Source: Amphibalanus amphitrite (lineage: Eukaryota > Arthropoda > Thecostraca > Balanomorpha > Balanidae). Taken from it: a DNA stretch of 64,000 nt. Positions 1,235 to 61,745 of this stretch are shown one piece after another. Position 1 is the stretch's first letter; each line of letters starts with the position of its first letter. The notes beneath the pieces were generated by a model that saw only the letters and a list, made by a program, of their open reading frames with translations, did not search any database and was not told where the DNA came from. Position numbers and translations under genes: made by a program. The DNA lies in contig NW_024882776.1 in the NCBI RefSeq assembly GCF_019059575.1, positions 1-64,000 of the forward strand, read 5' to 3'.

Positions 1235-3389
1235 ATGTCACGAGCTGACTTGTTCGGTGTGGGGAAGGAGGAGCGGAAGAGGAGGCTGGAACGGTGCTTT
1301 GACTGGAGAGTAAGGAATCTGGTGCAGAAGTATGTATCGTGTGCACATCTCATCCCCGACACTCTGCTATTGGCAGCCGACATTCGGAACAACCACTCCA
1401 CCAGGTGGCAGGACTACTGTACCGAGGCTGAGGTAAGCCACGCTGTCACCGGGCTGCTAGATTATCCGCTAATGGCAGCCCTACAGGATATCAGTGACGC
1501 CACCGCCACCAGTTGTCGACACTGCCAACCCAACCACGCCCTCAGAGTTGCCTCCATCAATCCATCAGGCAGCAGTGCCGAGGGGCTAACGGACGGGATA
1601 GTGGGCGTTGGTGGAACGTCAGATTTTGATCTGATGTTCGAGTTCGACGCTCCATTCCAATGGGCGGCGCTCGGAACGAGAGAGGAGCCGGCCGTTATTA
1701 CTCCACAGTCTGCACCACAGATATGGGCTCGACCGACCAAAAACCCTGGCTTTGTGACACTGCACTGGGTCAAGACGACTAAATGCAGTCATGATAAGCC
1801 CCTGGAGGTCTTGCCGGCCGACTCTATCCGCCAGCTAATGGTGGCATTATGTCGGATTATGAAGAGCGGCAAAATCAGTACCGCCGGACCAGCTGTCAAC
1901 GTCAAGAGATCAAATGATGTTACAGACGGAGGCATGGACTTTGTGCCGTGCATTCTTGTGCGCGGGTGGTGGCCGGCAGAGGAACAGCTCGACAGCTGCC
2001 ACCTGGAGGTGGACTTCCCGCCAGCAGCGGCTAGGGCTGACATCCGACGATTCGGAGTTCACCTTGTGCCGACCGGCCGGCACGGCAGTGACACCGAGTT
2101 TATCGAGTTTCGGATTTCCTTCTCACGGGCGGAGGTGATCACGGTTCGCTACCTCGCTCCAGTCATACGAGCGGCTATTGTGGCAGTAAAAGACATGAAA
2201 AATACTTTTAAAAAGAACGAGGTCATGAGCGACGATGTACCGCTGAAGTCATACTTTATAAAAACGGCCGGGCTGTGGCTGGCTCAAACCACGCCAGCAG
2301 GAATGTGGAAAGGCGTCACAGACGGTGTCAACAAAATACTTGACTGGCTGGAGAACAAATTGAACGCCGGGAAAATGCCCTGTTTTTTCGATCATAACAT
2401 CGATGTGGCAGCTGAACTCAGCACCGTAGAGCGGCGGGCTATCATTGACGCAGTACGGCTGATGAGGGATCATGTCACGATCCTTCTGATGGCAAGCTGT
2501 GTGTATCGGTGGGATGTGGATCTGCTGCTGGAGGGCGGGCTAGAGCAACTCACAGAGCGCCAGCTGGAGTCCCAGCTGCGGCTCCGACTTGGAAGGACGC
2601 TCGTCCGACAGGCTGTGGTTGACGGTGTCCGTTTCCGCCACACAGCTCCGTGCTGGGAGTGCTGGTGGAAGGAAAACATCCCTCCACTGGTCCGCACAGC
2701 CCCACTTCTACTACAGTGGCGGCATTACACCGAATCAGGAGCATACCTGCAGCAGTGTCTCATATTTATGGCGTGGGTAGTGGTCGACTCGGCAGACCTC
2801 CTGGACGGGACGCCGATGACATCACAGGTCAATGACATCGTCACGCTGGACGTGGGCCCCCTGATACAACTCCTCACCAGATCTGACCTCGATCTCCTGC
2901 TGGGTGACCCGGACAAGGTTGCCACCTGGTGGCGTAAGCAGCTGCGGCGGCCGCTGGAGGAGCGGCCGGCCGGACTGACCGCCAAGCCGGACACGTCGCG
3001 GGGCCGTGCCGAGGTGCTGCTTCGGCCTGAGCTGCTGCTGCAGGCTGTGCGAGTGAACGTACCGGGTAAGATGGCCTGGTGGCGGGATATCGACCAGAGA
3101 GAGAAAAACAGATGGATGAAAAACTTCCGACCAATATATACCTACCAGGAGACTCGGGAGAAGTTGGAGCAGCACATCTACACTAACCTGCATAAGTTGC
3201 TTCATGACGATCTACCAGAGATGGACGCCGCGTCTGTGGACGCCACGGCCGGACTCTGGCGCCGCAGGCTGCAGCAGCTGCTGTCCGGTGACCGGCTGCG
3301 GACGATCTACAACGCAATCACCGGCTGGTGGCCGGACCGGTGGGAGATGACGTCGCACTACCTGGCGGTGCACGAGGCCGACTCAGAGG
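1235..3389 (+). CDS. Unit A exon 1: Mab-21/cGAS-like nucleotidyltransferase
   Basis: Encodes residues 1-718 plus the first base of codon 719. Seen in the sequence: GSSAEGL at residues 112-118, the metal-binding DFDLMFEF (D130, D132) and a third acid in LEVDFPPA (D260). These match the cGAS/Mab-21 pattern G-S..E/D-x-D..D, and human cGAS has the comparable EFDVMF. A helical C-terminal segment begins near KSYFIKTAGLWLAQ. Known for the family: proteins with this triad make cyclic or linear oligonucleotides after sensing nucleic acid, although many Mab-21 members have no demonstrated activity. The start MSRADLFG was chosen because it is conserved in all three paralogs and lies just after a TATA/initiator pair. 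Exon 1 ends at AGAGG|GTAAGA. Sensor function is inferred; fold assignment is fairly secure. Confidence 0.85.
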
Positions 3390-3652
3390 GTAAGACGATA
3401 GTGACGCCAACCAATGCTTTAATCCGTCGTTTCATTTGCTTTTAAGTTCCAGTGTCATTCAAGAAACGACTGAGAAATACCTACTATGTAGTGAAATGGA
3501 TGAAAATCGATATGCGTCCAATGTTGTGATCTTCCCGCGGTCAGATCCTGTTTATTCATTCTATCATTGAGTTTTAGTTGTTTAGTGCTAAGCAGTTCGT
3601 CGGTTCAACGATATTTATAGCTGATATTTTCTACCTAATTGGTATGTTTCAG
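3390..3652 (+). other. Unit A intron 1
   Basis: GT at 3390-3391 (GTAAGA) and AG at 3651-3652 (TATGTTTCAG). The same splice sites occur in units B and C. Splicing keeps the frame, with codon 719 split 1+2. Unit B carries a T2 element at the homologous intron; here the matching site reads ttgtttagtg and is empty. Confidence 0.75.
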
Positions 3653-4591
3653 ATTCGGAGCATGACGACGACGGTCAGGCCGGTGGCGAGGAGCTACGCA
3701 GCGCAGACGAGGACCAGACATCAGGGGGTCTGCCCAGCCATCAGCGAGAGAAATGGCAGCAGCTGGAGCGACAGCACCAGCAGCTGTGTCAGCAGCTGGA
3801 GCGGCGGGGTCACGGGGAAAGGAGGAGTCTCAACCAGCAGCATGATGAGGAGCGCCGGCGTCTGGAGCGGATTCATGACAGAAAGTGGCAGAGCATGGAA
3901 ATGCGGCACCATGACGAGCGGAAGAGGCTCCATCAGCGGCACGAGAGTGCTACCAGGTGCGTGGAGCTGCAGTATCAGGGACAGGCGCAGCAAGCGAGAC
4001 GTCAGAGGCAGTTGGAGCTGCTGGACCGGAGAAACCGAAGGCAGTTAGCAGTACTGGAGCGACAGCACCAAATAGAGTGGGGAGACCTGGAGCAGAAGGT
4101 CCAAACGCAGTGGAACAAACTGAAACAGAAACACCTCAGGGAGTCACAAGAGCTGGAGGAGAGATACCCGAACATGCAGTCCGGGGAGGAGCTGGATCAG
4201 CTGATGGAGGAGTGCAGCAGGAGGCGTCGGCAGCTGCGGAAGGAGCTGGAGAAGGAGCTGGAGAAGGAGCTGGGGAAGGAGCTGGAGAAGGAGAAGAAGA
4301 AGGAACTGGAGAAGGAGCTGGAGAAGGAGGAGGAGAAGGAGCTGGAGAAGGAGAAGAAGAAGGAGCTGGAGAAGGAGCTGGAGAAGGAGAAGGAGATGGA
4401 GAAGAAGAAAGAGCTGGAGAAGAAGAAAGAGCTGGAGAAGGAGAAGGAGAAGGGGAAGGAGCTGGAGAAGGAGAAGGAGATGGAGAAGAAGCTGGAGAAG
4501 GAGAAGGAGCTGGAGAATGAGAAGGAAAGCAGGAAGGTGCAGGAGAAGAACTTCAAAGTGAAGAAGGAGGATGATAAGCCAGTTGAGCGTG
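3653..4591 (+). CDS. Unit A exon 2: charged coiled-coil / Lys-Glu repeat domain
   Basis: 939 nt (313 codons), so the reading phase is the same at both ends. Translation begins with an acidic stretch (SEHDDDGQAGGEE), continues as a Q/R/E/H-rich amphipathic helix (KWQQLERQHQQL and RRQRQLELLDRRN), and ends in a long run of ELEKE/KKE units encoded by a GAG-AAG-GAG-CTG repeat (about 4234-4520). The Lys/Glu pattern could form a coiled coil or a single alpha-helix (ER/K type). No enzyme motif is visible. The exon ends at GAGCGTG|GTAAGG. It is clearly part of the same gene, because the frame passes through both splice junctions without a stop and the arrangement is repeated in the paralogs. Its role in oligomerisation or scaffold formation is inferred. 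Confidence 0.75.
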
Positions 4592-4777
4592 GTAAGGTTT
4601 AGTGTTAATAACATTGCCTGTCAACAATTTTGCAGCTGAATCATATGCGCAGTCACGTGCTTTACATATCCTATGTTAATTTTATAGCAGGAGACTATTT
4701 GAAAATGAATAAAAACACCCTACAACCCTTTCATTCAGAATCTGTATAGGTATTGACTATTGTCCTTCTGATTTCAG

Positions 4778-5136
4778 ACAAGCAAAAGCGACAACAACGA
4801 CGACGACAACAACAACAGCAACATCAACAACAACGACGACAACAACAACAACAACAAGAACAACAACAACAACAACAACAACAGCGACGACGACGTCGTC
4901 AACAACAACATGAACCAGAACCACGGCAGCAGGAGCGGCAGCCGAGCCGGCGCTGTCAACACCTGCGGAACCTGGTAGAGGTAACGCGAAGACACCGCCA
5001 GCAGCTCATCCAGCTCCAGGAGCGGCACAACCAGGAGCTGGAGGAGCAGAGCAGACGTCACCGGCAGGAGCGGCAGGATCTGGAGCGGCGCCTCAGCCGC
5101 CGGCGGCACGGCCAGGAGCGGCGCAACGGACAATGA
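4778..5136 (+). CDS. Unit A exon 3: poly-Gln/Arg tract and terminal helix with stop
   Basis: Acceptor TGATTTCAG at 4769-4777. The split codon (G + AC) gives Asp and then KQKRQQ, followed by a CAA/CGA-encoded Gln/Arg tract (about 4788-4905). The exon closes with an R/Q/E/L-rich helix (RRHRQQLIQLQERHNQELEEQ) and ends HGQERRNGQ at a TGA (5134-5136). Exons 1-3 together predict 1150 aa with no internal stop. The last helix resembles the exon 2 helix in composition and may have arisen from it. A donor GTGAG|GTAATT lies 10 nt past the stop (GT at 5147), so this exon probably runs to 5146 and the 3' UTR is spliced. Confidence 0.72.
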
Positions 5137-5213
5137 CCGGCGTGAGGTAATTTCGTAGTGGAAAATTATTCCAGTATTCTACGTTTTCATTACATGATAA
5201 CGAGAAAATACTG

Positions 5214-7587
5214 TTAACCCGCGCCCTGCTGGGGGGGGGGGGGTGTTTGAACATCCCCCTGTGGTTTTTCGCGGATATCTCAAAAACGGCGGCGCGGAGC
5301 GCCGCCGTTTTTGGTACACCTTATTATACATCAATTCTACACATGTTGTAAAAATTTCAGACCAAGGTCATTCATGGTCAGGTCACCAGGTCACTTGAAG
5401 TGACCTCACCTCATAAAAAGTTTCAATGTCTGCCATAGCTACACCGAGTGACCGATCGCTTTGAAACTTTCAGCGATTACTAAGAGCAATAGCATGTACA
5501 AAATTTATATCTCAGAATTTTGATATCGATGACCTAAGGTCAGGTCAATTTTGCGACCTCCCCATTATAAGTCAATGGGAGAAAATTGAAATGCGTCTCT
5601 TTTGGACGAAAGGCATTAACCCGCGCCCTGATGGGGGGGCCATTTTGGCCCCCCTGTGGTTTTTCTTAAATAGCGAGAAAACGGCGGCGCGCAGCGCCGC
5701 CAAATTTTGGGTACCTTACCGGGCATCAATTTGACACCTTCACACAAAATTTCAAGTCACAGGTCACCTCAGGTCAGGAGTTATTGAGGTCAAACTGAGG
5801 TCATGTTCGTGTAAAAATGAGCAAAAAACATGACATCTTGAAACGCTCACCAATTCTACAGTTACAAGCAATTTTAAAGTTCTTTATGTGGTTGTGTAGA
5901 AAAAAGACGGCGCTACAAAACTGCTATCTCGGATTTTTGAAATTTTGGGATTTTGACCCCCAAAAATCAAAAAAATTGATTTTTTTAGAAAAACTCAAAG
6001 AAATTCCAAAAAAATTTCGAATTTCGAAAAAAACCGGAATATATGTGATAGTCCCTGCGCTCTTCCATATACATACTAAATTTTAGATCGATACCTCTTT
6101 TTTTGGCCAAGTTATAGCGAAAAAACTGTTAAAAATTGATGACGTCAAATTTTTGAACTCAATTTTTAGCAATTCTAGACCTTGTAGCGCAAAACGGAGA
6201 CCACCATTGAACTCCCCGTGACGAGCTGCATCGAATCGATACCCATTTTATGCAAACATATCAACTTTGAAATTTGACCTAATTTGACCTGACCTTGACC
6301 TGACCTTGATCTGACCTTGACCAAAACGTGACCTAAGCTGGCCCTAAAGTCTGTCTGACCCACATAATCGCATTTGTCATGTAAAATGGACCATAAAACA
6401 TGTATCACATGACACTTTCATATTGTGACCCCCCCAGTGACCTGACCTCTGTGACCTGACCTGGTATCAGTGACCTCAAATAGCAAAATATGTGTTTGAA
6501 GAACATTTCCCCATCGATGATTTTCAATGAAATGCATTTTACACGATTTTACAGCGCATTTCTTGAAATGCCTGTAAACGGTGAAAATTCGACCTTTGAC
6601 CTGACCTGTGACGTCATCGGTTTGACCGAGGTCAATGAAATTGGGTCACAAGGTAGTTCCCCGTTGGGGCTATCCAACACCGTTTACCGCTTGTCGCTAT
6701 GTTGCGTGGTTCTCGAGATCTGAGGGGGGGGCCAAAATGGCCCCCCCCCCATCAGACCGCGTTGCTCTGCAGACCCCATCTGGGCGCGGGTTAAAAACAC
6801 TCCCAAACACTGAATTACAAGTGGTTTAGACACACTGAACATGAAAATGGTGTCCGTGACCCCTGGTTATGCCCCTGAGGTCATCTTAGGTCACGAATGG
6901 TATCTAACAGTTTTTCGCAAATAACTTTTGATAGAGGCATGCTAGAGCGATGAAAACGCCTTAGATGTGTTCAGCTCGACGATACGGATCGACTGATATG
7001 CAACATGACCCTTTCCGGTCAGGTCATGACCTTGACCTGAGGTCAAATTTTCAAGTTGACCTTTCAAGGTCAAGTTATAGTTCATTCGATGCGTCTTGAC
7101 GAGAGGAACACGATGCCGGTAAAAGTAAGCTCGTACAAGGTTTGGGTCAAAAGTTATTGCAGAAAAACTGTTTCCGAAAAAATCGGCTTTTTTGCAGTTT
7201 TTACCCCCTGCAGGCAAAACCGTTGACGCTAGGTCAAATCTGAGGGAATAACTCAGAAAGAGCGTTAATAGGGCTATCGAATGCGCTTTTCCGCAGCGCT
7301 GTAGCTCTATTGGTTCCCGAGTTATGCGTTAGCTTCTTGGAAATTGTCGACATTCGACCTGGAGATCGGCGAAATTTTGCCTTCAATGACCTCTGGTGAC
7401 CTGACCTTTGACCTGACCAAAAAATTGACTGAAATGATTTCGTCATTATTTTTTACGCTCTTTCGAACGCCGCCTTCTGCGTATCGCTACGTGGCCCAGG
7501 AGCCGAGTTAGAAGGTGGGGTGTTTGAACACCCCCCCCCCCCCAGCAGGGCGTGGCAATCCAGGACCCCCAGCCGGGCGCGGGTTAA
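5214..7587 (+). mobile_element. T1 TTAA element in the 3' UTR intron of unit A (host of a nested element)
   Basis: TTAA at 5214-5217 is followed by CCCGCGCCCTGCTGGGG, and the right end GGGCGCGGG is followed by TTAA at 7584-7587. Just inside are a G-run..C-run inverted pair (5228-5265) and a GC hairpin (5286-5310). The interior is rich in TGACCT/AGGTCA. Unit C shows the empty site (tgttgTTAAtaaatatg at about 24236). A second element (5620-6790) is inserted inside it. Low coding potential; presumably mobilised in trans by a piggyBac-type transposase, which is not present in the window. Confidence 0.8.
5616..6794 (+). mobile_element. Nested T1-like element with TTAA duplication
   Basis: Left TTAA 5616-5619 then CCCGCGCCCTGATGGGG. 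The right end CCCATCTGGGCGCGGG is followed by TTAA 6791-6794. Removing the element plus one TTAA joins ggcattaa to aaacactccc, which corresponds to the uninterrupted inverted copy at 68-93 with two substitutions. The interior holds the GC hairpin (5682-5702), tandem TGACCT (6270-6330, 6430-6475) and TGACGTCA sites. Confidence 0.85.
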
Positions 7588-7685
7588 TATGAACTAGTAA
7601 ATACGTGTATTGTATTTTTCATGTTGTTTCGGTTGTCAAAGGCCTCATATTTGATTTATACAAGCCTGTTCTGTTTGTGTTTCAG

Positions 7686-7793
7686 GATACCAGCGGAATC
7701 ACGGACAAACTCAGGGAGGCGCCACTACGGAGAACATGTCGAGAGCGAGATATTTGTAGCATCAGACATGGCGGAAATACGTCGCTAGTGTAG
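7686..7793 (+). other. Unit A exon 4 (putative 3' UTR exon)
   Basis: A pyrimidine-rich acceptor TGTTTCAG (ending 7685) precedes a block that is nearly identical in all three units. It lies downstream of the TGA, so it should be 3' UTR if exon 3 uses the GTGAG|GTAATT donor. One frame of the block is open for about 35 codons, ends in the same TAG in all three copies and differs by few residues, so use as an alternative coding exon cannot be excluded. The 3' end is not defined; no AATAAA is evident close by. Confidence 0.5.
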
Positions 7794-9340
7794 ATGCTGA
7801 GATTGATAAAACGAGACCAGGTGCATTTTTATTAATGCTTATCAGGTCAGTGCTCATGTGATGGCGATGTTAGCAATGCATATAGAGTTTGTTTAGTCAT
7901 GGTTGATATAAGTGACATATATGTTGTGTTTACGACTGAAAAATGTAGTTTGAGTAATGCTATAGATGGTGACATTGATGTTGGCTCTCCCAACACCGTA
8001 TGTTGGTTATGGGCTGTTTTTCATAACGCATGTATTGTGCATTGTTGTGAAGCTCTGTAAATACTATACAAACAGACGTTCCCATCCCCATCTTTCGATG
8101 ACCGGACATAAGGCCCGCTGTCGGCGTGGTGATGGGAATCTGTGTAACGAACCATTACATCGAAGCCATTGAATATGTTGGCTACTGGAAGCAATGTACA
8201 TAGTATCAGAACGAAATACGAGTAACCTATACAAAGGCGACGAGACACCGGGCTCCACCGATAGCGCTGCTCCGAACCGCCGCGTCTAACACAGGAAGGG
8301 TGACGGCCACTGCAGCCGCAGCTGGCCAGGAAGGACGTCAGATAGGATGGCTGGCACCGCCGTCTCCACTAGCCGCAGGCAGGATGGTGCGGTTGGCGTG
8401 GCGCCGGTCCGAGAGGGGGAAGGGGACGGTGACATCATCCAGTCTGGAAAACACTGCGCAAAATAGATGCGACGCGACTTGCTCGGTTGAGGTCACATGA
8501 TCATGACAGCCTGTGGCTTTTTGGTCAGGTTAGTGAAATTTGAGAATGTGAAACAGATCTTCGGTACATGTACATACACATTACACATTGCTAGTTGCAA
8601 ATGCAATCGTCAAAACTATTTCACTACTTTCATGACCTTCAGTGACCTAAGGGTCAGCAGTGACTTCACCCCGGCCGCCAGTCCACCGTGGCTGCAGCGG
8701 TCCTCGCCTCCATGACCATTGCCTCAGACATACGAGAGGATTGATAAAGTCTAGTGCCGAGTGTCCCAATAGGTACAGCCCACCGCTAAAGTAATGTAGG
8801 GTTTTACCAATCTCAACGGTTGGCTTTGACTGGCGATTGTTTAATGCGGAGTGATCGAAAAGAAGATGTCAATAGCTAAAGTTGCAGCTGCAAGGGTGAC
8901 GATACATATAAGCTACATTCAAAGTTTCATTGTAGTCTGGCTAATCGTTCCTAAGCTTCAGAAGCAGAACATACCCATGACTGAAACTCCACATTACTTT
9001 TGCTGTGGACTGTACTATTGAGCGCAGAATCCGCACTCATACCGGGACCGAAGCGGGGCAGGCCTGGTGTATCAGAGAGTGTACCGATTAGTGTGATGCG
9101 GAACCATATCCCATCTAGTCGGCTGCTGATCTCCCAGGTACTAGTGACAACTCAGATCTCTCAGTACTACAACTTAGATCTCTCAGTACTAGTGACAACA
9201 CAAGGACATGTGGATTTACATCAAACTATATCTCCAACAATAGCGCTGCCACCGACTTCACCACTGCATCGCGTCAGTCGCTGCCACTGGACGGACACGG
9301 GCACAGAGCGTTCCGTCTTATCTGTGTTCCTGTCGGGGTC
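7794..9340. other. Intergenic A-B with blocks conserved between units
   Basis: No additional gene recognised. Blocks at about 7833-8100, 8220-8360 and 8640-8740 recur after units B and C in the same order, so they belong to the duplicated unit. The TTAA at 7832-7835 (tttttaTTAAtgctta) is the empty counterpart of the double insertion in unit C. At 9120-9215 a short motif (actagtgacaa / agatctctcagtact) is repeated two or three times. Confidence 0.55.
8220..8360 (+). repeat. Conserved downstream block of the gene unit (copy A)
   Basis: The segment containing CACCGATAGCGCTGCTCC and CAGCCGCAGCTGGCC is found after unit A (here), after B (about 18180-18300), after C (about 26948-27250) and inverted at about 62757-63058. 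It holds palindromic pieces (AGCGCT, CAGCTG). The function is unknown; its retention in all copies may simply reflect recent duplication. Confidence 0.6.
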
Positions 9341-9342
9341 GG

Positions 9343-9406
9343 TATATATCTACAGCGACGTCGGCCGGCCTTCGTCAGTCCGGGAGAGTCAGAGCAGCCG
9401 GCAGCC
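9343..9406 (+). promoter_or_regulatory. Unit B core promoter and 5' UTR
   Basis: TATATAT at 9343-9349, initiator TCAGTC at 9375-9380 (A at 9377), ATG 30 nt later. In units A and C an extra TCAGT four bases upstream gives the ideal 30-bp spacing; here it is changed to ttcgt. The 140 bp upstream of the TATA box closely match unit C. Confidence 0.6.
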
Positions 9407-11549: not shown

Positions 11550-11725
11550 GTAAGACGATAGAGCCGCCAATCAATACTCAAATTTGTTGTTTCCTTTGCT
11601 CCCAGCCTCATTCCAGGAATGACTTAGAAATACTACTGCAACGGATGAAAATCGATACGAGTCAGACGTCGTGATCTTCCCGTGACCAGATCCTGTTTTT
11701 TTATTATATTGCTGACTTGTGGTTG

Positions 11726-12930: not shown

Positions 12931-12997
12931 CTGCTAAGTAGTTCGTCTGTTGAACGCCCACCCAGCTGATATTGTCTACCTAATTGGTATGTTTCAG

Positions 12998-13785
12998 AGT
13001 CGGAGCAGGATGATGACAACGGTCAGATCGGTGGCGAGGAGCGGCACAGCGCAGACGAGGACCAGACATCAGAGGGTCTGCCCAGCCCTCAGCGAGAGAA
13101 ATGGCAGCAGCTGGAGCGACAGCACCAGCAGCTGTGGCAGCAGCTGGAGCGGCGGGGATACGGGGAAAGGAGGAGTCTGAACCAGCAGCATGATGAGGAG
13201 CGCCGGCGTCTGGAGCGGATTCATGACAGAAAGTGGCAGATCATGGAAATACGGCACCATGACGAGCGGAAGAGGCTCCATCAGCGGCACGAGAGTGTTA
13301 ACAGGTGCGTGGAGCTGCAGTATCAGGGACAGGCGCAGCAAGAGAGACGTCAGAGACAGTTGGAGCTGCTGGACCGGAGAAACCGAAGGCAGTTAGCAGT
13401 ACTGGAGCGACAGCACCAAATAGAGTGGGGAGACCTGGAGCAGAAGGTCCAAACGCAGTGGAACAAACTGAAGCAGAAACACCTCAGGGAGTCACAAGAG
13501 CTGGAGGAGAGATACCCGAACATTTGGTCAGGTGAGGAGCTGGATCAGCTGATGGAGGAGTGCAGCAGGAGGCGTCGGCAGCTGCGGAAGGAGCTGGAGA
13601 AGGAGCTGGAGAAGGAGCTGGAGAAGGAGCTGGAGAAGGAGAAGGAGAAGGAGAAGAAGAAGGAGAAAGAGAAGGAGAAGAAGAAAGAGCTGTCAGCTGG
13701 AGAAGGAGCTGGAGAAGGAGAAAGAGAAGGAGAGGGAAAGCAGGAAGGTGAAGAGGAACCTGAAAGTGGAGAAGGAGGAGGATAA
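12998..13785 (+). CDS. Unit B exon 2: charged coiled coil, frameshifted
   Basis: The same acceptor (ATGTTTCAG, ending 12997) and the same frame as units A and C for most of its length: acidic start, then KWQQLERQHQQLWQQLERR, then the ELEKE repeat. At about 13693-13699 the sequence reads AGCTGTCAGCTGGAG. Relative to the repeat, this is a 7-nt insertion (TCAGCTG) that shifts the frame by +1. Translation then switches to a Gly/Glu stretch (GAGEGERE) and stops at TAA 13783-13785, giving a predicted 976-aa protein without the exon 3 domain. Past the lesion the old frame is still open up to the conserved donor GAGCGTG|GTAAGC (exon end 13799). This may be a recent null change, a real shortened isoform, or an assembly error in a repeat. 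Confidence 0.7.
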
Positions 13786-13979
13786 GTCAGTTGAGCGTGG
13801 TAAGCTTTACTGTTAAATAACATTGCTTGTCAACAATTTTGCAGCTAAATCATGTGCGCAGTCACGTGGTTTACATACCCTATGTTGATTTTATATCCGG
13901 AAACTATTTGAAAATAAATAGAAGCACCCTACAACCTTTTCATTCAGGATCTTTTTAAGTCTTGTCCTTCTTATTTCAG

Positions 13980-14320
13980 ACAAGCAAGAGCGACAACAAC
14001 AACGACGACAACAACAGCAACAACAAGAACAAGAACTAGAACAACAAAAACAACAACAACAACAACGACGACGACGACGTCAACAACAACAACATGAACC
14101 AGAACCACGGCAGCAGGAGCGGCAGCCGAGCCGGCGCTGTCAACACCTGCGGAACCTGATAGAGGTGACGCGAAGACACCGCCAGCAGCTCATCCAGCTC
14201 CAGGAGCGGCACAACCAGGAGCTGGGGGAGCAGAGGAGACGTCACCGGCAGGAGCGGGAGGATCTGGAGCGGCGCCTCAGCCGCCGGCGGCACGGCCAGG
14301 AGCGGCGACACCCACAGTGA
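13980..14320 (+). pseudogene. Unit B exon 3: poly-Gln/Arg tract (out of frame with exon 2)
   Basis: Acceptor TTATTTCAG ends at 13979. The block keeps an open frame matching units A and C (DKQERQQQ.., Gln/Arg tract at about 13990-14095, then RRHRQQLIQLQERHNQELGEQ) and ends RRHPQ at TGA 14318-14320. Because exon 2 is frameshifted, a standard splice would enter it in the wrong frame, and the exon 2 TAA comes first anyway. It looks intact in itself, which argues that the exon 2 lesion is young or not fixed. The donor GTGAG|GTGATT follows at 14331. Confidence 0.6.
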
Positions 14321-14529
14321 CCGGCGTGAGGTGATTTCGTAGTGGAAAATTATTCCAGTATTCTACGTTTTCATTACATAGTAACGAGAAAATACAAATC
14401 TAATCTAATGAAAAATCTAATGGGTTAAAAAATATGTACTGATAAATACGTGTGCTGCTTTTTCATGTTGTTTCGGTTGTCTAAGGCCTCATATTTGATT
14501 TATCCAAGACTGCTCTGTTTGTGTTTCAG

Positions 14530-14637
14530 GATACCAGCGGAGTCACGGACAAACTCAGGGAGGCGCCACTACGGAAAACATGTCGAGAGCGAGATATTTG
14601 TAGCATCAGAAATGGCGGAAATATGTCGCTAGTGTAG
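14530..14637 (+). other. Unit B exon 4 (putative 3' UTR exon)
   Basis: Acceptor TGTGTTTCAG ends at 14529. The block is nearly identical to 7686-7793 and 24346-24453, with the same short open frame ending in TAG. It is placed in the 3' UTR because the stop lies in exon 3 in units A and C. Confidence 0.5.
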
Positions 14638-14794
14638 ATGCTGAGATTGATAAAACGAGACCAGCTGCATTTTTCTTAATGCTTATAAGGTCAGTGCTCA
14701 TGTGATGGCGAAGAAGGCAATGCCCTATAGCGTTTGTATGGTCATGGTTGATAAAAGTTAGGTAGTGTTGTTTTTACGACTGCAAAATGTAGCT

Positions 14795-15389
14795 TTAACC
14801 CGGCGGCCGCTGGGCCTCCGCGCCACCCGCCGGCCGCTGGAGGGGGGGGCATAAAGTTGCCCCCCTTTACTTCTGCGACGATATCGTCGCAACGCGAAGA
14901 GCTAGAGAAGCGAAACTTTGCACACATCTTCCTGAATACCTAGCCAAGGTTGTGTCCAAATTTGGTGTCGATCCCATTTGCAATGACGTCACAGTGACGT
15001 CATAAGTGAAATTATAGATTTACGACTCTCATATTCCTCACGATGCATCACATATATGGGACCGAATATAAAGGGCCGATTATTGGTCAGAAACTAGATG
15101 GAAGTGTAGTAAGATGTTTTAGGATGACGGCAGGTGCTGTCTAGTTCATTTACAGTCGAGTTTCATGCTCAGCGTCATCAGAAACGGCCCATATCGGAAA
15201 ACGACAAAACTTTATGACGTCACTGTGACGTCATCTTAGGTGCTAAAACCACCAAACTTTCCTCAAACATTGCCTAGGTATTCATTTGAAGCTATGCCAA
15301 GTTTCACGCTCGTAGCTCATCAGGTTTCGGAGATATTTCACAAAACGTAAAGGGGGGCAACTTTATGCCCCCAGCGGCTCGTGGGTTAA
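14795..15389 (+). mobile_element. T6 TTAA element
   Basis: TTAA 14795-14798 then CCCGGCGGCCGCTGGGCC. The right end CCCCAGCGGCTCGTGGG is followed by TTAA 15386-15389. A subterminal GGGGGGGCATAAAGTTGCCCCCC pair near the left is mirrored at the right. It contains two TGACGTCA-type sites (about 14983-15003 and 15216-15233) but few AGGTCA sites, unlike the other families. It is the first of four abutting elements. Confidence 0.75.
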
Positions 15390-16566
15390 CCCGCGCGGGG
15401 CTGGGGGGGGGGGTAAATTTTACCCCCCCTCGCGAATTTTTGCAATATCTGAAAAACGGCGGCGCGCAGCGCCGCCAAACTTTTAGTACCTTTTCTTACA
15501 TCAATTTGACACGTTCCCTGAAAATTCGAGCGAAATCCGTCGGAAATTTTTTGAGATATTGACGTTTTAGTGACGTCATGTTCGCCATTTTCGCCTCAAA
15601 AACGGCAAAAGTTCAAACGCCGCTAACATCTTCATTTCTAAAGGAATCAAGACGTAACAAAAAAGGATATACGTAATTTTACTTTGTCTATCAAATGGCT
15701 ATCTCGGTTTTTTGAAAATTATGGATTTTGGCCCAATTTTTTCAAAAAACTGACCTTTTTGGGAAAATAGCTATAAAATCCAAAATTTTGAGTTTATCGA
15801 AAAAAACGGAATATATGTCAGAGAAGTGGTCTATGTGCACCTACAAACCAAGTTTTGGAAGAATCGGTTCAAAAATGTGGGAGTTATTCAAAATTGTATG
15901 ACGTCACGACACACAAAAATTTTGAAAAATGACTTTTTTGGAAGTTCTAGACCTCGTACGGAAACAAAAGTAGCACCATTCGATTCGCCGTGAAAAACTG
16001 CATCAGATAGACACCTTTTTAGGCCTTAACAACCAACTTCAAAATTTGACCTCACTTGACCTGACCTTGACCTGACCTCGACCTGAAATTCATCCAGAGG
16101 TGGTCCATATCACTTATTGAGTGTGCCTATTGAATTCTATGAGTAAAATGACCCATAAAACATGTGTCGCACATGCCCTTTTCTATATTTTGTTTTTGGT
16201 GACCTGACCTGACCTGACCTGACCTTGACCTTGACCTCTGAATGATATTGTATGCAACGAATATTGTCTTGGTAGCCTAAGAACACGTTTTGGGCGATCA
16301 GTCTCAGTCCATGACTCCATTCTTCGGCAACTACGGTGCAAGGCCGATACTGTAGGAACTTGCAATTTGTACCCTTGACCTGACCTTGACCTTGACCTCA
16401 AACTTAAAATTAAGTACATGTTTTTAGTTGTTCGTGATGAGATCTTTCGATTGGCGTTTGAATTTTTCAAATCGGACCATTAGTTCGGGAGATAACAGGG
16501 GGGTAAAATTTACCCCCCCCCCCAGCCCCGCGCGTTCGGCTGGAGACCCAGCCCCGCGCGGGTTAA
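15386..16566 (+). mobile_element. T5 TTAA element (copy 1)
   Basis: TTAA 15386-15389 then CCCGCGCGGGGCTGGGG. The right end CCCCGCGCGGG is followed by TTAA 16563-16566. Just inside the right end the terminal motif occurs twice (CAGCCCCGCGCG, spacer ttcggctggagac, CCAGCCCCGCGCGGG). A run of overlapping TGACC units lies at 16200-16232 and a GC hairpin at about 15455-15475. A second, closely matching copy is at 58099-59274. Confidence 0.85.
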
Positions 16567-16862
16567 CACGCGCAGTGGAAGGGTTGCGAGTACTACGCCC
16601 AGTGGAAGGGGGGCGGATGTCGCCCCCCTAAGATCTCAGCTCCCACTGGAGCTAGAAAGACGAAATTTGGGGGGGGGGTAGGTGGGGGCCATAAGGAACT
16701 CTGTTGTGTGTGAATTTCATGACCCTAGGTCAATAACTTCAAGGTCAAATGAGATCAAATGTGGTCAAATCTGCCATATTAGCGACTTTTTTGCGTTAAC
16801 ACGCCGATAACTCAAAAAGTTACCGGCCGAATTCGCCCCCCCCCTTCCACTGCGCGTGTTAA
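16563..16862 (+). mobile_element. T3 TTAA element, internally deleted (copy 1)
   Basis: TTAA 16563-16566 then CACGCGCAGTGGAAGG. The right end CCTTCCACTGCGCGTG runs into TTAA 16859-16862. Only about 292 bp, against about 861 bp for the copy at 24496-25356. The left about 230 bp match that copy and the middle is missing, which is typical of internal-deletion derivatives. Confidence 0.8.
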
Positions 16863-17890
16863 CCCTCGCCGGACCTATTGGTTTTCTACATACGCGCCGG
16901 CCGAGGGGGGGGGGTACGACCCCCCCTCGCCGTTTCGCCCCTGGTGGAGCTAGCGCGTCGCGGAAAAAACGAGCGTGTGCGCCGTTACGAGACGCAGAGA
17001 TTGGTACCCAATTTTAAGGTCCTAGGTCAACCGGTGACCTCTGAGGTCAGGTCAAGTGCCCCAGGGAACGGTTTAGTTTTTGGTGAATAACTTCGCAAAA
17101 AACGGCCGCAGAGCCGCGATTTTGGCAGCATCGTGTTCGCCTCGCTCAGGCGCGTCGAATGATATACTTTTTGTTCGGGTCAGGTCAACTTGGGGTGTTG
17201 ACCTCAGGTCAAGGTCAGGTCAGCACCCCCAGGTCACGAAGTTGGTCGAAAGAGGTCATGTTGCATATCATGCGATTCGGCAGGCCTTCCTGAGTCCATT
17301 GGTGGCTTTCCCGACTCGCTAGCTCAATTTGATCAAGAGTTATTGACGAAAAACTAATATGACCTTGATGACGTCATAAATGACGTCACGAAAGGTCAAC
17401 ATTGCAAAAGTGACGCATCTAACCTTGCAAGGAGTGCATCAAATCACGATTCTGTGTGCTTGAGATAGTTGGAGATCGTTCCCGGCGCCAGAATAGCAGT
17501 TTTCATTTTTCCCCGTTGACTTATAATGGTGAGGTCACGAAAATGACCTGACCTCATATAAACTTTAGGAAAAATCCGAGATATACAAGTTGTGGGACTC
17601 ATAATGGATACTAGATCCTGCAAGTTTCATTTCTCTGTGACATCTCCTCTGGCAGTGAGGGCGTTGCGAAGTTGCGACATCTGAAGACCGTGCAGAGGTT
17701 CACTTATGACGTCATAGGTCAGTGACCTGACCTGACCCAAAAAGGTGGTTGGTGTCAAAAGATCCGGCTTGGATCAAAGGTCAGGTATGCCAAGTTTCAG
17801 CTCTCTATCGCCATTGTGTTCGGAGCTATTGCGAAAAAACCCTATGGGGGGGCGGAACCCGCCCCCCCCCCCTCGGCCGGCGAGGGTTAA
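16859..17890 (+). mobile_element. T4 TTAA element (copy 1)
   Basis: TTAA 16859-16862 then CCCTCGCCGGACC. The right end CGGCCGGCGAGGG is followed by TTAA 17887-17890. Contains TGACGTCATAAATGACGTCA (17369-17388), the shared motif TTGACTTATAATGG (17517) and many AGGTCA sites. Nearly the same sequence is at 45330-46359. Confidence 0.85.
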
Positions 17891-18400
17891 TGACTAATGC
17901 TATACATAGAAGGTGACATTGATGTTGGCTCTCCGAACACCTTGTGTTGGTTATGGGCTGTTTTTCATGACACATGTATTGTGCAGTGTTGTGGCGCTCT
18001 GTTAATACTATACAAACAGCCGTCTCCATCCCCATCTTTCGATGACCGGACATAAGGCCAGTTGTCGGTGTGGTGATGGGAATCTGTGTAACGAACCGTT
18101 ACATCGAAGCCATTGAACATGTTGGCTACTGGAAGCAATGTACATAATATCAGAACGAAATACGAGTAACCTATACAAAGACTCCGGGCCGGCCGGACTT
18201 CACCGATAGCGCTGCTCCGAACCACCGCGTCTAACACAGGAAGGGTGACGGCCACTGCAGCCGCAGCTGGCCAGGAAGGACGTCAGATAGGCGGGATGAC
18301 ACTGCCGTCTCCTCCAGCCGCAGGCAGGATGGTGCGGTTGGCGTGGCGTCGGTCAGAGGGGGGGGGGGGCGGTGACATCATGCCAGTCTGGAAAGTACTG
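17891..18400 (+). repeat. Conserved downstream block of the gene unit (copy B)
   Basis: Resumes the unit downstream sequence exactly after the four-element insertion (tgactaatgctatacatag..). It matches 7950-8400 and 26677-27120, including CACCGATAGCGCTGCTCC and the GCAGCCGCAGCTGG segment. No gene recognised. Confidence 0.6.
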
Positions 18401-20255
18401 CACAACTTATAGAGCTGACGCGACTTGCCCGGGTAAGGCTACAGGAGGATAACAGCCCATGGCTCATTGTCAGGTTCGTAGGATTTGAGAAGTTGAAACA
18501 GGTCCCAGTCAGACAATCGTAACATACACTTTGCTGGTTGAAAGGGCATTTTGGCAACGATCTTTTATTTCCTTCCGAAGTTTGAACTTCGATGACCTTC
18601 AGTGACCTAAGGGTCAGCAGTGACGTCATCCCCGTCCGCCAGCTTACCGTGGCTGCAGCGGTCCTCTCCTCTCTGACCGTCACCTCAGACTACCAGAGGG
18701 TTCATAGAGAGAACAGAACTGAGTGTACCAACAGACTCTCCTAGTTTGGATTTGTGAGACCGTCCAGCATCGTCACGAAGCAGCCATTCTCGATATATTA
18801 TTTTGTCTTATATGTCTCACAAACTAGTTGGGACGTGCCGACCGGAGGTGCCGGCGGCCACTATATCGGTGACGTCACGCTCCATTCCCACCAGACACGA
18901 GGTGCGGCCCGCCACAGGCTGTGGATCACTGACCCACAAAACACCCGACCATCCACGGGCTGTGGGTGTATCACTGACCCACAGAACACCCGGCCCGCCA
19001 CGGGCTGTGGATCACTGACCACAGAACACCCGGCCAGCCACGTGCTGTGGATCACTGACCCACAGAACACCCGGCCAGCCACGTGCTGTGAATCACTGAC
19101 CCACAGAACACCCGGCCCGCCACGTGCTGTGAATCACTGACCCACAGAACACCCGGCCCGCCACGGGGTGGGGATCACTGACCCACAGACACCCGGACTC
19201 CGTAGCGTTTTGTACAGCACCGTGAGTGAATAGGACGGAGGTCACTGACTGACGTCAGCACGGGTGACACCCAGCTCAAAATACCTCCCAGTGGAGGATA
19301 GCCAGTGTCAGAGGTGTCCGAACAGTCCAGTTGTGACATTTGTACTTTTATTTACAGCATAGCACTGAGCAGGGAGATCCCCCTTTCGGATTTCCAAAAA
19401 TAGCTCATGTAATATAGCAGGAAGGTGACAAAACTTTGAGTGACCTCGTGGGGTTCGATTTTACAACTTATCGAGCTGAAAATCGATTGACCCTGATAGC
19501 AATAACAATTGATCAATCACATCTCTCGAGATCATGTCAGGTCAGAATGGTGATTGGACGTAACAGCAAACACAACATCTGCATATACGTTAAAAATTGT
19601 CTTGATGTGTGCGCACGACAACGGAAGGATCAATGCTTCGTTTAAACTTCTCAGAGGAGTAGGCAAAATTGTGATTTCCTTAGGGCTATGGGCATCAAGT
19701 CATTTTTTTCGTGAAACCTAGCGATTATTTCCGGGACTGGGGCTGAGTCCTTGTCACGTGACCATCATTCTGGGTCATACTTCAAAACGGGTGTCATCGT
19801 TAGCACTTAGCAGTATAACAACGGATATTCGGGTGTTGAAAAAGTCTCTGACGAAACGCGTCCACCCATGTGCTGTATGTTTTTCCTACTCAATATATAT
19901 CATAACAACGGATGTAACCGACAATCGACGGAAGCGGTGTAAAGGAACCGGTGTTTGGGTTTCAATTAACGCCTTACTGTGGTGTACACCCTAGGCCAGG
20001 GCCTAGACCCAGTCGATCCTATGTATAGTTGGAGATTTGAACGCTGGTTATGAACGGCATGCCCTAAATGCGAAAATATTACGTTATTAGACCTCTCAGT
20101 GCTAGTGACAACACAAAGGCATGTGGACTTACATCAAACTATATCCCCAACAACAGCGCTGCCACCGACTTCACCACTGCATCGCGTCAGTCGCTGCCAC
20201 TGGACGGACACGGCCACAGAGCGTTCCCTCTTATCTGTGTTCCTGTCGGGGTCGG
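18401..20255. other. Intergenic B-C
   Basis: Contains the conserved block GATGACCTTCAGTGACC (about 18590-18690, also at 8630-8730), a 41-bp minisatellite and, from about 20090, the distal promoter shared with unit B. No additional gene recognised. Confidence 0.5.
18903..19196 (+). repeat. 41-bp minisatellite, about 7 copies
   Basis: A tandem unit of about 41 bp built around CACCCGGCCCGCCACG, CTGTGGATCACTGACC and CACAGAA. The copies differ by single substitutions and small deletions (one unit lacks a C in gaccacag). The open reading frame across it follows from the repeat composition and is not a gene. Confidence 0.9.
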
Positions 20256-20319
20256 TATATATCTACAGCGACGTCGGCCGGCCTCAGTCAGTCTGGGAGA
20301 GTCAGAGCAGCCGGCAGCC
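20256..20319 (+). promoter_or_regulatory. Unit C core promoter and 5' UTR
   Basis: TATATAT at 20256-20262 and initiator TCAGT at 20284-20288 (A at 20286, exactly 30 bp from the first T). The ATG is at 20320. This is the best-formed of the three core promoters. Confidence 0.65.
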
Positions 20320-22458
20320 ATGTCACGAGCTGACTTGTTCGGTGTGGGGAAGGAGGAGCGGAAGAGGAGGTTGGAAAGGTGCTTTGATTGGGAGGTCAGG
20401 AATCTGGTGCAGAAGTACGGATCGTGTGCACATCTGATCCCCGACACTCTGCTGTTGGCACACGACATTCGGAGCAACCACTCCACCGGGTGGCAGGCCT
20501 ACTGTACCGCGGCAGAGGTAAGACACTCTGTCACCACGCTGGTAGATTATCCACTCATGGCAGCCCTGCTGGATGTTAATGACGCCGCCGCCGCCCGTTG
20601 TCGACACTGTCAGTCCGACCACCCCCTCAGAGTTGCCTCCATCAATAGATCAGGCAGCAGTGCCGAGGGACTGACGGACTTGGTAGTGGGCATTGGCGGA
20701 ACGTCAGATTTTGATCTGATGTTCGAGTTCGATGCTCCATTTCAATGGGCGGTACTCGGAAAGAGAGATGAGCCGGCCGTTATTACGCCGAAGTCGGCAC
20801 CACAAATGTGGGCTCGACCGACCAAAAACCCTGGATTTGTGACGCTGCACTGGGTCAAGACGACTAAATGCAGTCATGATAAGCCGCTGGAGGCCTTGCC
20901 GGCCGACTCCATCCGCCAGCTAATGGTGGCATCATGTCGGATTATGCAAGACGGCAAAATCAATACTGCCGGACCGGCTGTTAACGTCAAGTCGTCAGAT
21001 GATATCTCAGACGGAGGCATGGACTTTGTGCCGTGCATTCTTGTGCGCGGGTGGTGGCCGGCAGACCAGCTAGACAGCTGTCACCTGAAGGTGGACTTCC
21101 CGCCAGCAGCGGCCAGGGTTGACATCCGACGATTCGGAGTACACCTTGTGCCGACCGGCCGGCCCGGCAGCGACACCGAGTTTATTGAGTTTCGGATTTC
21201 CTACTCACGGGCGGAGGTGATCACAGTTCGATATCTCGCTCCAGTCATACGAGCAGCTATTGTTGCAGTAAAAGCCATGAAAAATTCTTTGAAAAAGAGC
21301 GAGGTGATAAGCGAAGATGTGCCATTAAAATCATACTTTATAAAAACGGCCGGGCTTTGGCTGGCTCAAACCATTCCAGCTTCAATGTGGAAGGGCGTCA
21401 CCGACGGTGTCAACAAAATACTTGACTGGCTGGAGGACAAATTGAACGCCGGGAAAATTCCGTGTTTTTTCGATCATAACATCGATGTGGCAGTTGAACT
21501 CAGCACCGTAGAGCGGCGGGCTATCATTGACATCATGCAGCTGATGAGGGAGTATGTCACGCATCTTCTGATGGGATGCTGTGAAAATCTGTGGAATGTG
21601 GATCTGCTGCTGGAGCCCCTCAAAGACCGCCAGCGAGAGCCCCAGCTGCGGCTCCGTCTCGGAAGGACGCTCGTCCGACAGGCTGTCTTTGAGGGTGTCT
21701 CTGTCCGCCACACAGCTCCGTGCTGGGAGTGGTGGTGGAAGGAGAACATCCCTCCACTGGTCCGCACAGCCCCACTTCTATTACAGTGGTGGCATTACAC
21801 CAAATCAGAAACATACCTGCAGCAGTGTCTCATGTTCATGGCATGGGTGGTGGTCGACTCAGCAGACATGCAGTTAGGGACACCGATGACGTCACAGGTC
21901 AGCGACATCGTCACGCTGGACGTGGGCCCCCTGATAAACTCCTCACCAGATCTGATCTCGATCTCCTGCTGGGTGACCCGGACAAAGTGGAGACCTGGTG
22001 TAGTCAGCAGCTGCGGCGGCCGCTGGAGGAACGGCCGGCCGGACTGACCGCCGAACTCGACACGACGCGGGGCCGTGCCGAGCTGCTGCTGCGGCCCGAG
22101 CTGCTGCTGCAGGCTGTGCGAGTGAATGCGCCGGGTAAAATGGCCTGGTGGCGGGATAATGACCGGGAGGTGGAGAACAGTTGGATGAAAAACTACCGAC
22201 CACTGGGTTCCTACCAGGAGACTCGGGAGAAGTTGGAGCATCTCTTCAACACTAACCTGCATAAGCGGCTCCGTGTCAAACTACCAGAGATGGACGCCGC
22301 GTCTGTGGACGCCACGGCCGGCCTCTGGCGCCGCCGACTGCAGCAGCTGCTGTCCGGTGACCGGCTGCGGACGATGTACAACGCTATCACCGGCTGGTGG
22401 CCGGACCGATGGGAGATGACGTCGCACTACCTGGCGGTGCACGAGGCCGACTCAGAGG
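20320..22458 (+). pseudogene. Unit C exon 1: Mab-21/cGAS-like nucleotidyltransferase with 1-nt deletion
   Basis: Paralog of units A and B, with GSSAEGL, DFDLMFEF (D130, D132) and the third acid in LKVDFPPA (D259). At 21931-21941 it reads CTGATAAACTCC where A and B read CTGATACAACTCC: one base is missing at about 21935. The frame is lost near residue 539, within the C-terminal helical part, and a stop follows at 22045-22047. Downstream of the lesion the correct frame continues open to the conserved donor (CTCAGAGG|GTAAGA). The nucleotidyltransferase core would still be made, but without its last about 175 residues and without the coiled-coil tail. It may be a pseudogene or a single-base sequencing or assembly error. 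Confidence 0.75.
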
Positions 22459-22715
22459 GTAAGACGATATTGACGCCAACCAATGCTCCAATCCGTCGTT
22501 TTATTTGCTTCCAAGTTCCAGTGTCATTCCAAAAACGACTGAGAAATACCTACCAGTGCAATGAATGAAAATCGACATGCGTGCAATGATGTGATCTTCC
22601 CGAGACGAGATCTGTTTATTCAATTTATCATTGAGTTGTGGTTGTTGAGTGCTAAGCAATTCGTCGATTCAACGACCACCCACCTAATATTTTCTACCTA
22701 ATTGGTATGTTTCAG

Positions 22716-23570
22716 ATTCGGAGCAGGATGACGACGACGGTCAGGCCGGTGGCGAGGAGCGGCGCAGCGCAGACGAGGACCAGACATCAGGGTGTCTGCC
22801 CAGCCCTCAGCGAGAGAAATGGCAGCAGCTGGAGCGACAGCGCCAGCAGCTGTGTCAGCAGCTGGAGCGGCGGGGTCACGGGGAAAGGAGGAGTCTCAAC
22901 CAGCAGCATGATGAGGAGCGCCGGCGTCTGGAGCGGATTCATGACAGAAAGTGGCGGAGCATGGAAATACTGCACCATGACGAGCGGAAAAGGCTCCATC
23001 AGCGTCACGAGAGTGTTACCAGATGCGTGGAGCTGCAGTATCAGGGACAGGCGCAGCAAGAGAGACGTCAGAGACAGTTGGAGCTGCTGGACCGGAGAAA
23101 CCGAAGGCAGTTAGCAGTACTGGAGTGGCAACACCAAATAGAGTGGGGAGACCTGGAGCAGAAGGTCCACACGCAGTGGAACAAACTGAAACAGAAACAC
23201 CTCAGGGAGTCACAAGAGCTGGAGGAGAGATACCCGAACATGCAGTCCGGGGAGGAGCTGGCTCGGCTGATGGAGGAGTGTAGCAGGAGGCGTCGGCAGC
23301 TGCGGAAGGAGCTGGAGAAGGAGCTGGAGAAGGAGAAGGAGAAGGAGAAGGAGAAGGAGAAGGAGAAGGAGAAGGAGAAGGTGCTGGAGAAGGAGAAGGA
23401 GAAGGAGAGGGAGAAGGAGCTGGAGAAGGGGAAGGAGAAGGAGAAAGGGGAGGAGCTGGAGAAGGTACTGGAGAAGAAGAAGAAGCTTGGGAAGAAGGAG
23501 AAGGAAAGCGGGAGGGTGCAGGAGAAGAACCTCATAGTCAAGAAGGAGGAGGATAAGCCAGTTGAGCGAG
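22716..23570 (+). CDS. Unit C exon 2: charged coiled-coil / Lys-Glu repeat domain
   Basis: 285 codons, phase-symmetric like unit A exon 2. Acceptor TATGTTTCAG ends at 22715; donor GAGCGAG|GTAAGG. Acidic start, Q/R/E helix, then a Lys-Glu repeat dominated by EKEKEK (GAGAAG repeats, about 23310-23420) where A has ELEKE. No stop in the expected frame. Its translation depends on the frameshift in exon 1 being absent. Confidence 0.65.
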
Positions 23571-23758
23571 GTAAGGTCTATTATTCATAGCGTTGCTTGT
23601 CAACCATTTTGCAGCTAGATCATGTGTACAGTCACCTGAGCTTTACATATTTTATGTTGATTTTATAGCCGGAGACTATTTGAAAATGAATAGAAACACC
23701 CTACAACCCTTTCATTCAGAATCTGTACAAGTATTGACTTTTGTCCTTCTGATTTCAG

Positions 23759-23830
23759 GCAAGCAAAAGCGGCAACGACGACAACAACAACAGCAACATG
23801 AACAACAACAACAGCAACAACTAGAACAAG

Positions 23831-23870
<40 letters not shown>

Positions 23871-24162
23871 GCAACAACAAGAACAAGAACAACAACTAGA
23901 ACAACAACGACGACGACGACGTCATCAACAACAACATGAACCAGAACCACAACAGCAGGAGCGGCTGCCGAGCCGGCGCTGCCAAAACCTGCGGAACCTG
24001 ATAGAGGTAACGCGAAGACACCGCCAGCAGCTCATCCAGCTCCAGGAGCGGCACAACCAGGAGCTGGAGGAGCAGAGGAGACGTCACCGGCAGGAGTGGC
24101 AGGATCTGGAGCGGCGCCTCAGCCGCCGGCGGCACGGCCAGGAGCGGCGACACCCACAGTGA
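23759..24162 (+). CDS. Unit C exon 3: long poly-Gln tract and terminal helix with stop
   Basis: Acceptor TGATTTCAG ends at 23758. The Gln tract (CAA/CAG, about 23775-23910) is the longest of the three, with interspersed Glu (QLEQEQQ), then RRRRHQQQHEPEPQQQERLPSRR and the conserved RRHRQQLIQLQERHNQELEEQ helix. It ends RRHPQ at TGA 24160-24162. Donor GTGAG|GTAATT (GT at 24173) as in unit A. Confidence 0.65.
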
Positions 24163-24345
24163 CCGGCGTGAGGTAATTTCTTTGTGGAAAATTATTTCAG
24201 TATTCTACGTTTTCATTACAAAATAACGAGAAAATGTTGTTAATAAATATGTACTGATAAATACGTGTGCTGCATTTTTCATGTTGTTTCGGTTGTCTAA
24301 GGCCTCATATTTGATTTATACAAGCCTGCTCTGTTTGTGTTTCAG

Positions 24346-24453
24346 GATACCAGCGGAATCACGGACAAACTCAGGGAGGCGCCACTACGGAGAACATGTC
24401 GAGAGCGAGATATTTGTAGCATCAGACATGGCGGAAATATGTCGCTAGTGTAG
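24346..24453 (+). other. Unit C exon 4 (putative 3' UTR exon)
   Basis: Acceptor TGTGTTTCAG ends at 24345; nearly identical to the unit A and unit B blocks. The intron before it contains the unoccupied TTAA (24238-24241) that is filled in unit A. Confidence 0.5.
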
Positions 24454-61677: not shown

Positions 61678-61745
61678 CTCATACTGAGATTTTTCCGTTA
61701 TATTGAAAAGATTCGCTTCGCTCGCTGCGCTCGCTCGCTCGTAAT

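Follow-up and report, generated by a model that had tools for sequence, protein, structure and literature searches.

The window analysed here was a stretch of 64,000 nucleotides from Amphibalanus amphitrite (contig NW_024882776.1; G000:C1279:1-64000), and the genome searched was the 807.55-Mb assembly of 2,644 contigs. Arthropod origin agreed with the cuticle-type chitin-binding domains of this genome: of 705 candidates 150 were scored, and all 150 were matches. The initial annotation had described a head-to-tail triplet of cGAS/Mab-21-like enzyme genes with long charged tails, and all three copies were located in the window in that arrangement. In copy 1, the sole copy of the three that was whole in this assembly, the three exons joined in phase 1/1 into a single frame of 1,150 residues, with 718 residues from exon 1 and about 430 from the tail. 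The features were as follows.

1235..3389, + strand: copy 1 exon 1, residues 1-718; donor GG|GTAAG at 3390. The nucleotidyltransferase core of the cGAS/Mab-21 type with its helix bundle occupies residues ~38-424, and an extra helical module residues 425-718 (Pfam, AlphaFold2 (AF2) model, fold search)
1568..1630, + strand: copy 1, first catalytic motif, G112-S113-x2-E116-G117 followed by D130-F-D132; invariant in 22/22 paralogs
1937..1939, + strand: copy 1, third catalytic Asp, D235 in GGMDFVPC; invariant in 22/22 rows of alignment A1 and 24/24 rows of alignment A2
3653..4591, + strand: copy 1 exon 2, acidic linker, charged helical core (~195 residues including the linker) and a Lys/Glu repeat of 117 residues; phase-1 acceptor and donor
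4778..5136, + strand: copy 1 exon 3, a Gln/Arg-rich run followed by the conserved basic C-terminal end with the stop codon
9407..11549, + strand: copy 2 exon 1, which encodes 714 residues and is intact, with its donor at 11,550
12998..13799, + strand: copy 2 exon 2 (L051), frameshift in the Lys/Glu repeat; an in-frame stop at 13,783-13,785 precedes the donor, and there is no in-frame donor
13980..14320, + strand: copy 2 exon 3, whose frame does not match that of copy 2 exon 2 as assembled
20320..22458, + strand: copy 3 exon 1, frameshift near 21,930; two overlapping tblastn pieces
22716..23570, + strand: copy 3 exon 2 (L047), intact
23759..24162, + strand: copy 3 exon 3, intact and longer than the exon 3 of either other copy

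Phase-correct splicing had been claimed for every copy. This held for copy 1 and for the positions of the splice sites in the relatives, but copies 2 and 3 were not intact. The array had also been drawn to position 24,453, which exceeds its coding part; the final stop codon of copy 3 was found at 24,160-24,162. The helical module at residues 425-718 within exon 1 had been overlooked.

The nucleotidyltransferase exon

Exon 1 was identified as a nucleotidyltransferase of the cGAS/Mab-21 fold with a complete active site on the basis of Pfam, the AF2 model, a fold search and residue conservation. The exon-1 products of copies 1 and 2 scored above the curated cut-offs for both Mab-21 (PF03281) and Mab-21_C (PF20266), and at E <= 0.01 Mab-21_C was detected in 24/24 and Mab-21 in 19/24 of the A2 rows. 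When exon 1 was compared with cGAS and cGAS-like receptor (cGLR) structures, the AF2 model resembled those of cGLRs and CD-NTases. The best profile match in the PDB was cGAS-like receptor 1 (8gjy, E 3.3e-18).

The catalytic pattern described initially was all there, namely GSSAEGL, D130-F-D132 and D235. The active-site residues G112, S113, E116, D130, D132 and D235 were unchanged in 22 of 22 paralogs. Further residues of the nucleotide pocket were likewise conserved (S295, S297, S339, Y340 and K343 in 22/22, R293 in 21/22). No zinc-thumb cysteine cluster was seen by eye in the 24 A2 rows, where it would be expected between the core and the SY-x-x-KT helix. The helical module 425-718 gave no PDB match at E <= 0.001 and possibly represents a new fold.

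The tail exons and their place in the gene

By sequence comparison the tail is a genuine part of the gene family, since exon order, splice sites, selection on the reading frame and the position of the stop codon all agreed. Genome-wide, 59 of the 62 exon-1 loci had an exon-2 match in the same orientation no more than 70 kb downstream, without another exon 1 in between, and exon 3 was found for 42 of the 62. This set comprised 62 exon-1 loci, obtained from 63 rows by merging two pieces that belonged to one locus, 74 of 101 exon-2 rows and 48 of 48 exon-3 rows; the other 27 exon-2 rows were taken as extra pieces of exons already counted. Viewed from the 74 exon-2 places, the nearest exon 1 lay upstream on the same strand in 61 cases, downstream on the same strand in four and on the other strand in one, and eight places were on contigs without an exon 1. 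The distance from exon 1 to exon 2 ranged from 0.3 kb to 64 kb, thus the pairing outlasted large differences in intron length.

The splice sites were found at the same place and in the same phase in the relatives: the exon-1 donor in 25/25, the exon-2 acceptor in 30/30 and the exon-2 donor in 28/30, the two exceptions being window copy 2 and one copy on contig C684. The exon-1 donor was assessed in 25 of the 30 fetched exon-1 loci, the other five being partial or ending elsewhere. Within a second subfamily of ~57% identity the donor of five loci read GTAAG in three and GTACG in one, and it was not found in one. The position of the final stop codon was identical in the ten exon-3 copies examined. 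One or two stops were flagged in most exon-3 matches of the more distant copies, and in the six of these that were translated the stops were only terminal or beyond.

Distances between copies in exon 1 correlated with those in exon 2 over 20 paired copies (r 0.89, 0/999 permutations) and over ten copies of the second subfamily (r 0.92, 0/999 permutations). There was no such agreement within ten near copies (r 0.18, 171/999 permutations), so these may have undergone recombination or gene conversion.

The ratio of nonsynonymous to synonymous substitution rates (dN/dS) was estimated from 24, 29 and 18 sequences for exons 1, 2 and 3, respectively, with stop-bearing and short sequences excluded. 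For exons 2 and 3 the estimates covered the exon-2 core and the exon-3 end, with the Lys/Glu and Gln/Arg runs excluded. In frame, dN/dS was 0.37 for exon 1, 0.45 for the exon-2 core and 0.40-0.41 for the C-terminal end of exon 3. The two other frames of the same alignments yielded 1.22 and 1.48, 1.12 and 1.09, and 0.69 and 1.88, respectively. Within exon 1, the ratios of sums were 0.25 for the nucleotidyltransferase core, 0.26 for the helix bundle, 0.53 for the module and 0.49 for the N-terminus. The non-repeat parts of all three exons are under purifying selection, beyond what chance would give. Judged by these sequence comparisons, the tail is predicted with high confidence to be joined to the enzyme family.

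The exon-2 linker and charged core were conserved, with 45-49% identity in the seven best matches among the more distant copies. The Lys/Glu run of exon 2 varied from 16 to 117 residues over 30 copies, the longest being that of window copy 1, and such variation is expected from repeat slippage. Exon 3 consisted of a variable Gln/Arg run and the conserved basic end, with a net charge of +20 overall. No Pfam match above the cut-off was obtained for the exon-2 pieces of copies 1 and 2. Opposite charges at i+3/i+4 spacing in the Lys/Glu run, counted as a check for a single α-helix, numbered 68 pairs against 61 like-charged ones, and 660 of 2000 shuffles gave an equally large excess. The statement that the tail is made only of coiled-coil and low-complexity helix was too strong, since the hydrophobic residues of the exon-2 core had no significant heptad rhythm. 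The fitting description of the tail is long, charged and helix-prone, and it may self-associate.

The family in the genome

The proposed expanding array turned out to belong to a large family expansion, with dozens of duplicated genes genome-wide. At least 63 matches were obtained by protein search and at least 54 by Pfam search; both counts are lower bounds, only the best candidates having been scored, and probably include both haplotypes. The gene number is uncertain because several loci occurred in equal-score pairs that are probably the two haplotypes. Contig C684 carried seven exon-1 matches that were 84-88% identical to copy 1; an additional, eighth exon 2 on this contig was accompanied by a mere remnant of exon 1 (L044). 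The subfamily of ~57% identity was spread over contigs C155, C176, C236, C474, C573 and others, its copies lying tens to hundreds of kb apart. Its exons 1 and 2 were separated by roughly 12-64 kb, and its exon-2 cores looked internally duplicated. Two further pairs of strong Mab-21 loci, separate from the family, scored ~141 bits against PF03281, compared with ~31 bits for the window copies.

The STING ligand-binding domain was matched 21 times in the genome, every match being over the cut-off. At one locus (L074, G000:C298:316500-318050) an open frame at 122-1426 encoded 434 residues with two consecutive STING ligand-binding domains, which would be an unusual arrangement for STING. Similar pairs of STING domains were noted on C912, C517 and C172, some of them probably allelic. 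The multiplication of STING in the same genome makes nucleotide-STING signalling plausible for the tailed family and is no proof of it.

Several other features of the window were recorded. Inverted repeat arms of 154 nucleotides (270-423 and 5265-5418, 93% complementary) lay on both sides of copy 1; they contained many GGTCA-type repeats that were present elsewhere in the window and are possibly a dispersed repeat. A 41-nucleotide tandem repeat of ~7 copies was located at 18905-19196 between copies 2 and 3. A pol gene like that of long terminal repeat (LTR) retroelements, with reverse transcriptase, RNase H, integrase zinc-binding and integrase core domains, was found at 35669-39335 on the - strand. 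Satellite-like arrays of TACGTACTTTTG-type units occurred at 49814-50373 and 55959-56535 in opposite orientations, with periods of 64 and 73. Three alike open frames, 191-235 residues long, were present at 60779-61354, 61698-62405 and 63406-63981, one of them on the + and the other two on the - strand. The first and the last were near-identical, and the three are probably a repeated element. The one of the three that was tested against Pfam (61701-62405) had no match.

Function and alternative explanations

According to section 5 of the survey of Li et al. 2023 (PMC9980059), most genomes hold 1-5 cGLRs and some bivalves >200; 87% of cGLRs stand alone, and the others are fused to tetratricopeptide repeats (TPR), ankyrin or multiple cGLR domains. 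The tail had been regarded as no standard cGLR layout, and indeed the layout is absent from the fusions named in that section. Like the present family, those fusions combine the catalytic core with an additional part for interactions. However, their appendages are named domains, whereas here the exon-2 pieces were without Pfam matches and the exon-1 module was without a PDB match at the threshold given above. Among the papers listed in the literature searches, none reported such a tail in its title or abstract opening; the comparison with eukaryotic sequences covered the genome itself, PDB and Pfam.

Compared with Cv-cGLR1 of Crassostrea virginica (8gjw) and cGAS-like receptor 1 (8gjy), the core is followed here by a helical module of ~300 residues and a charged tail of ~430 residues, a Ser precedes GS, and the spacing from DxD to the third Asp is 99-119 where measured. 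The N-terminus of cGAS is basic and disordered. In contrast to human and mouse cGAS, no zinc-thumb cysteine cluster was seen here, and the additional charged region lies at the C-terminal end, to which it is joined by splicing, rather than at the N-terminus. MAB21L1/2 have the same Pfam domains, but the ~31 bits of the window copies against ~141 bits of the separate loci argue against MAB21L orthology, as far as bit scores rather than a tree can do so. Shrimp LvMab21-1 (1,042 aa) is, by description and not by sequence comparison, another large crustacean Mab-21 protein; its Mab21 domain lies at 373-716 with extra sequence on both sides, and it is reported as non-catalytic (PMC12928593).

It was proposed that the genes form a lineage-specific, tandemly duplicating arthropod family of cGAS/Mab-21-fold nucleotidyltransferases with ligand-triggered, tail-clustered STING signalling, which we regard as somewhat probable. 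On meeting its ligand, the enzyme would make a cyclic (or linear) dinucleotide by condensing nucleoside triphosphates, and STING-type receptors would sense this product. The tail would increase the local enzyme concentration: the exon-2 helix may self-associate, and the polybasic exon-3 end may bind nucleic acid or other polyanions by analogy with the basic N-terminus of cGAS. Clustering would thus activate the enzyme. The helical module and the N-terminus, which evolve faster, might serve copy-specific ligands or partners. Confidence in this mechanism is moderate.

Several results weigh against this proposal. As assembled, copy 2 shifts frame in exon 2 and stops after residue 976, and in copy 3 a frameshift falls near 21,930 in exon 1, exons 2 and 3 being fine; both frameshifts may be assembly errors. 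The hydrophobic residues of the exon-2 core had a best period of 3.75, which was matched by 26 of 300 shuffles, with only 0.17 at 3.5; the first half had a period of 3.66 (14/300 shuffles), and for the second half 60/300 shuffles did as well. Moreover, the hydrophobic sites of this core were no better conserved than other sites. The motif of Li et al., h[QT]GS[X8-20][DE]h[DE]h[X50-90]h[DE]h, with h read as AILMFVWYC, matched 0 of 24 rows as written, because a Ser instead of [QT] precedes GS and the DxD-to-Asp spacing is too long. The family was therefore filed as a cGAS/Mab-21-superfamily enzyme and not as a cGLR by that definition; it probably works like a cGLR.

The main rival, which we consider rather unlikely, is a non-catalytic scaffold of the Mab-21 fold: a nucleotide bound in the pocket would have a structural role, and a kinase such as IKK-epsilon would be recruited through the tail and module. 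It draws on PMC12928593, in which shrimp Mab21 proteins reportedly neither sense nucleic acid nor produce cGAMP, and three of them bind IKK-epsilon and not STING. It is also consistent with a remark in PMC9980059 that signal production by Mab21L1-type proteins, whose putative site is complete, is not understood. However, the six active-site residues here are invariant in 22/22 paralogs, which weakens this explanation, and the nucleotidyltransferase core and helix bundle were the most constrained of the parts tested. The shrimp proteins are also described in that paper as having no canonical ligand-recognition residues. An active nucleotide synthase with a non-immune role, for example in development or larval settlement, appears improbable. 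STING domains are multiplied in this genome, and in a mussel STING was reported to mediate c-di-GMP-induced metamorphosis (PMC11190208), but the mussel cue is bacterial and not animal-made, and the sequence gave no hint of settlement. Repeated duplication and relaxed constraint outside the core would also suit immunity better.

It is very improbable that the tail exons belong to other genes lying downstream or are never translated: the order was kept in 59/62 loci, the acceptor and donor retained their phase in 30/30 and 28/30, selection acts on the joined frame, and the stop codon was constant in ten exon-3 copies. Retention of intron 1 would nevertheless bring an in-frame stop soon after exon 1 and give a tail-less isoform, and L048 on C684 has a stop directly after the exon-1/exon-2 junction. 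We see just as little probability in a selfish element or dying array, in which mobile DNA has multiplied an old gene, leaving mostly pseudogenes. Such decay would agree with the frameshifts of window copies 2 and 3 and with the fetched loci in which exon 1 was partial, split or stop-bearing (9/30) or exon 2 was interrupted or incomplete (4/30), all of which also count against the signalling proposal; retroelement genes nearby and the inverted arms around copy 1 would fit mobility. However, exon 1 was full-length and stop-free in 21/30 loci, exon 2 was open from the acceptor to an in-phase donor in 26/30, and both were open in 16/20 paired loci, the remaining four including window copy 2 and L048; the fetched loci were best matches, a sample biased to intact copies. 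The dN/dS values were well below 1, and among predicted viral protein structures there was no match at E <= 0.001.

The family is probably an expanding nucleotide-signalling branch with an immune role. A bolder version, which we hold to be quite doubtful, is an undescribed branch of animal cGAS-like synthases in which a built-in charged helical tail would set activation, its slippage-variable length acting as a clustering threshold. The module would pick the trigger, and dozens of copies that escape the published motif filter would feed an enlarged STING set including the two-domain form. The active-site pattern of the survey, which allows neither SGS nor the longer loop, would miss a whole expanded family with a complete site, and arthropod cGLR counts may therefore be too low. 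If the signalling proposal holds, this large arthropod family would consist of second-messenger synthases whose appendage is unnamed in section 5 of the main cGLR survey. It would then be a direct test case for a built-in tail replacing ligand-driven clustering, and with the family and multiplied STING in one animal the signalling question would be testable there.

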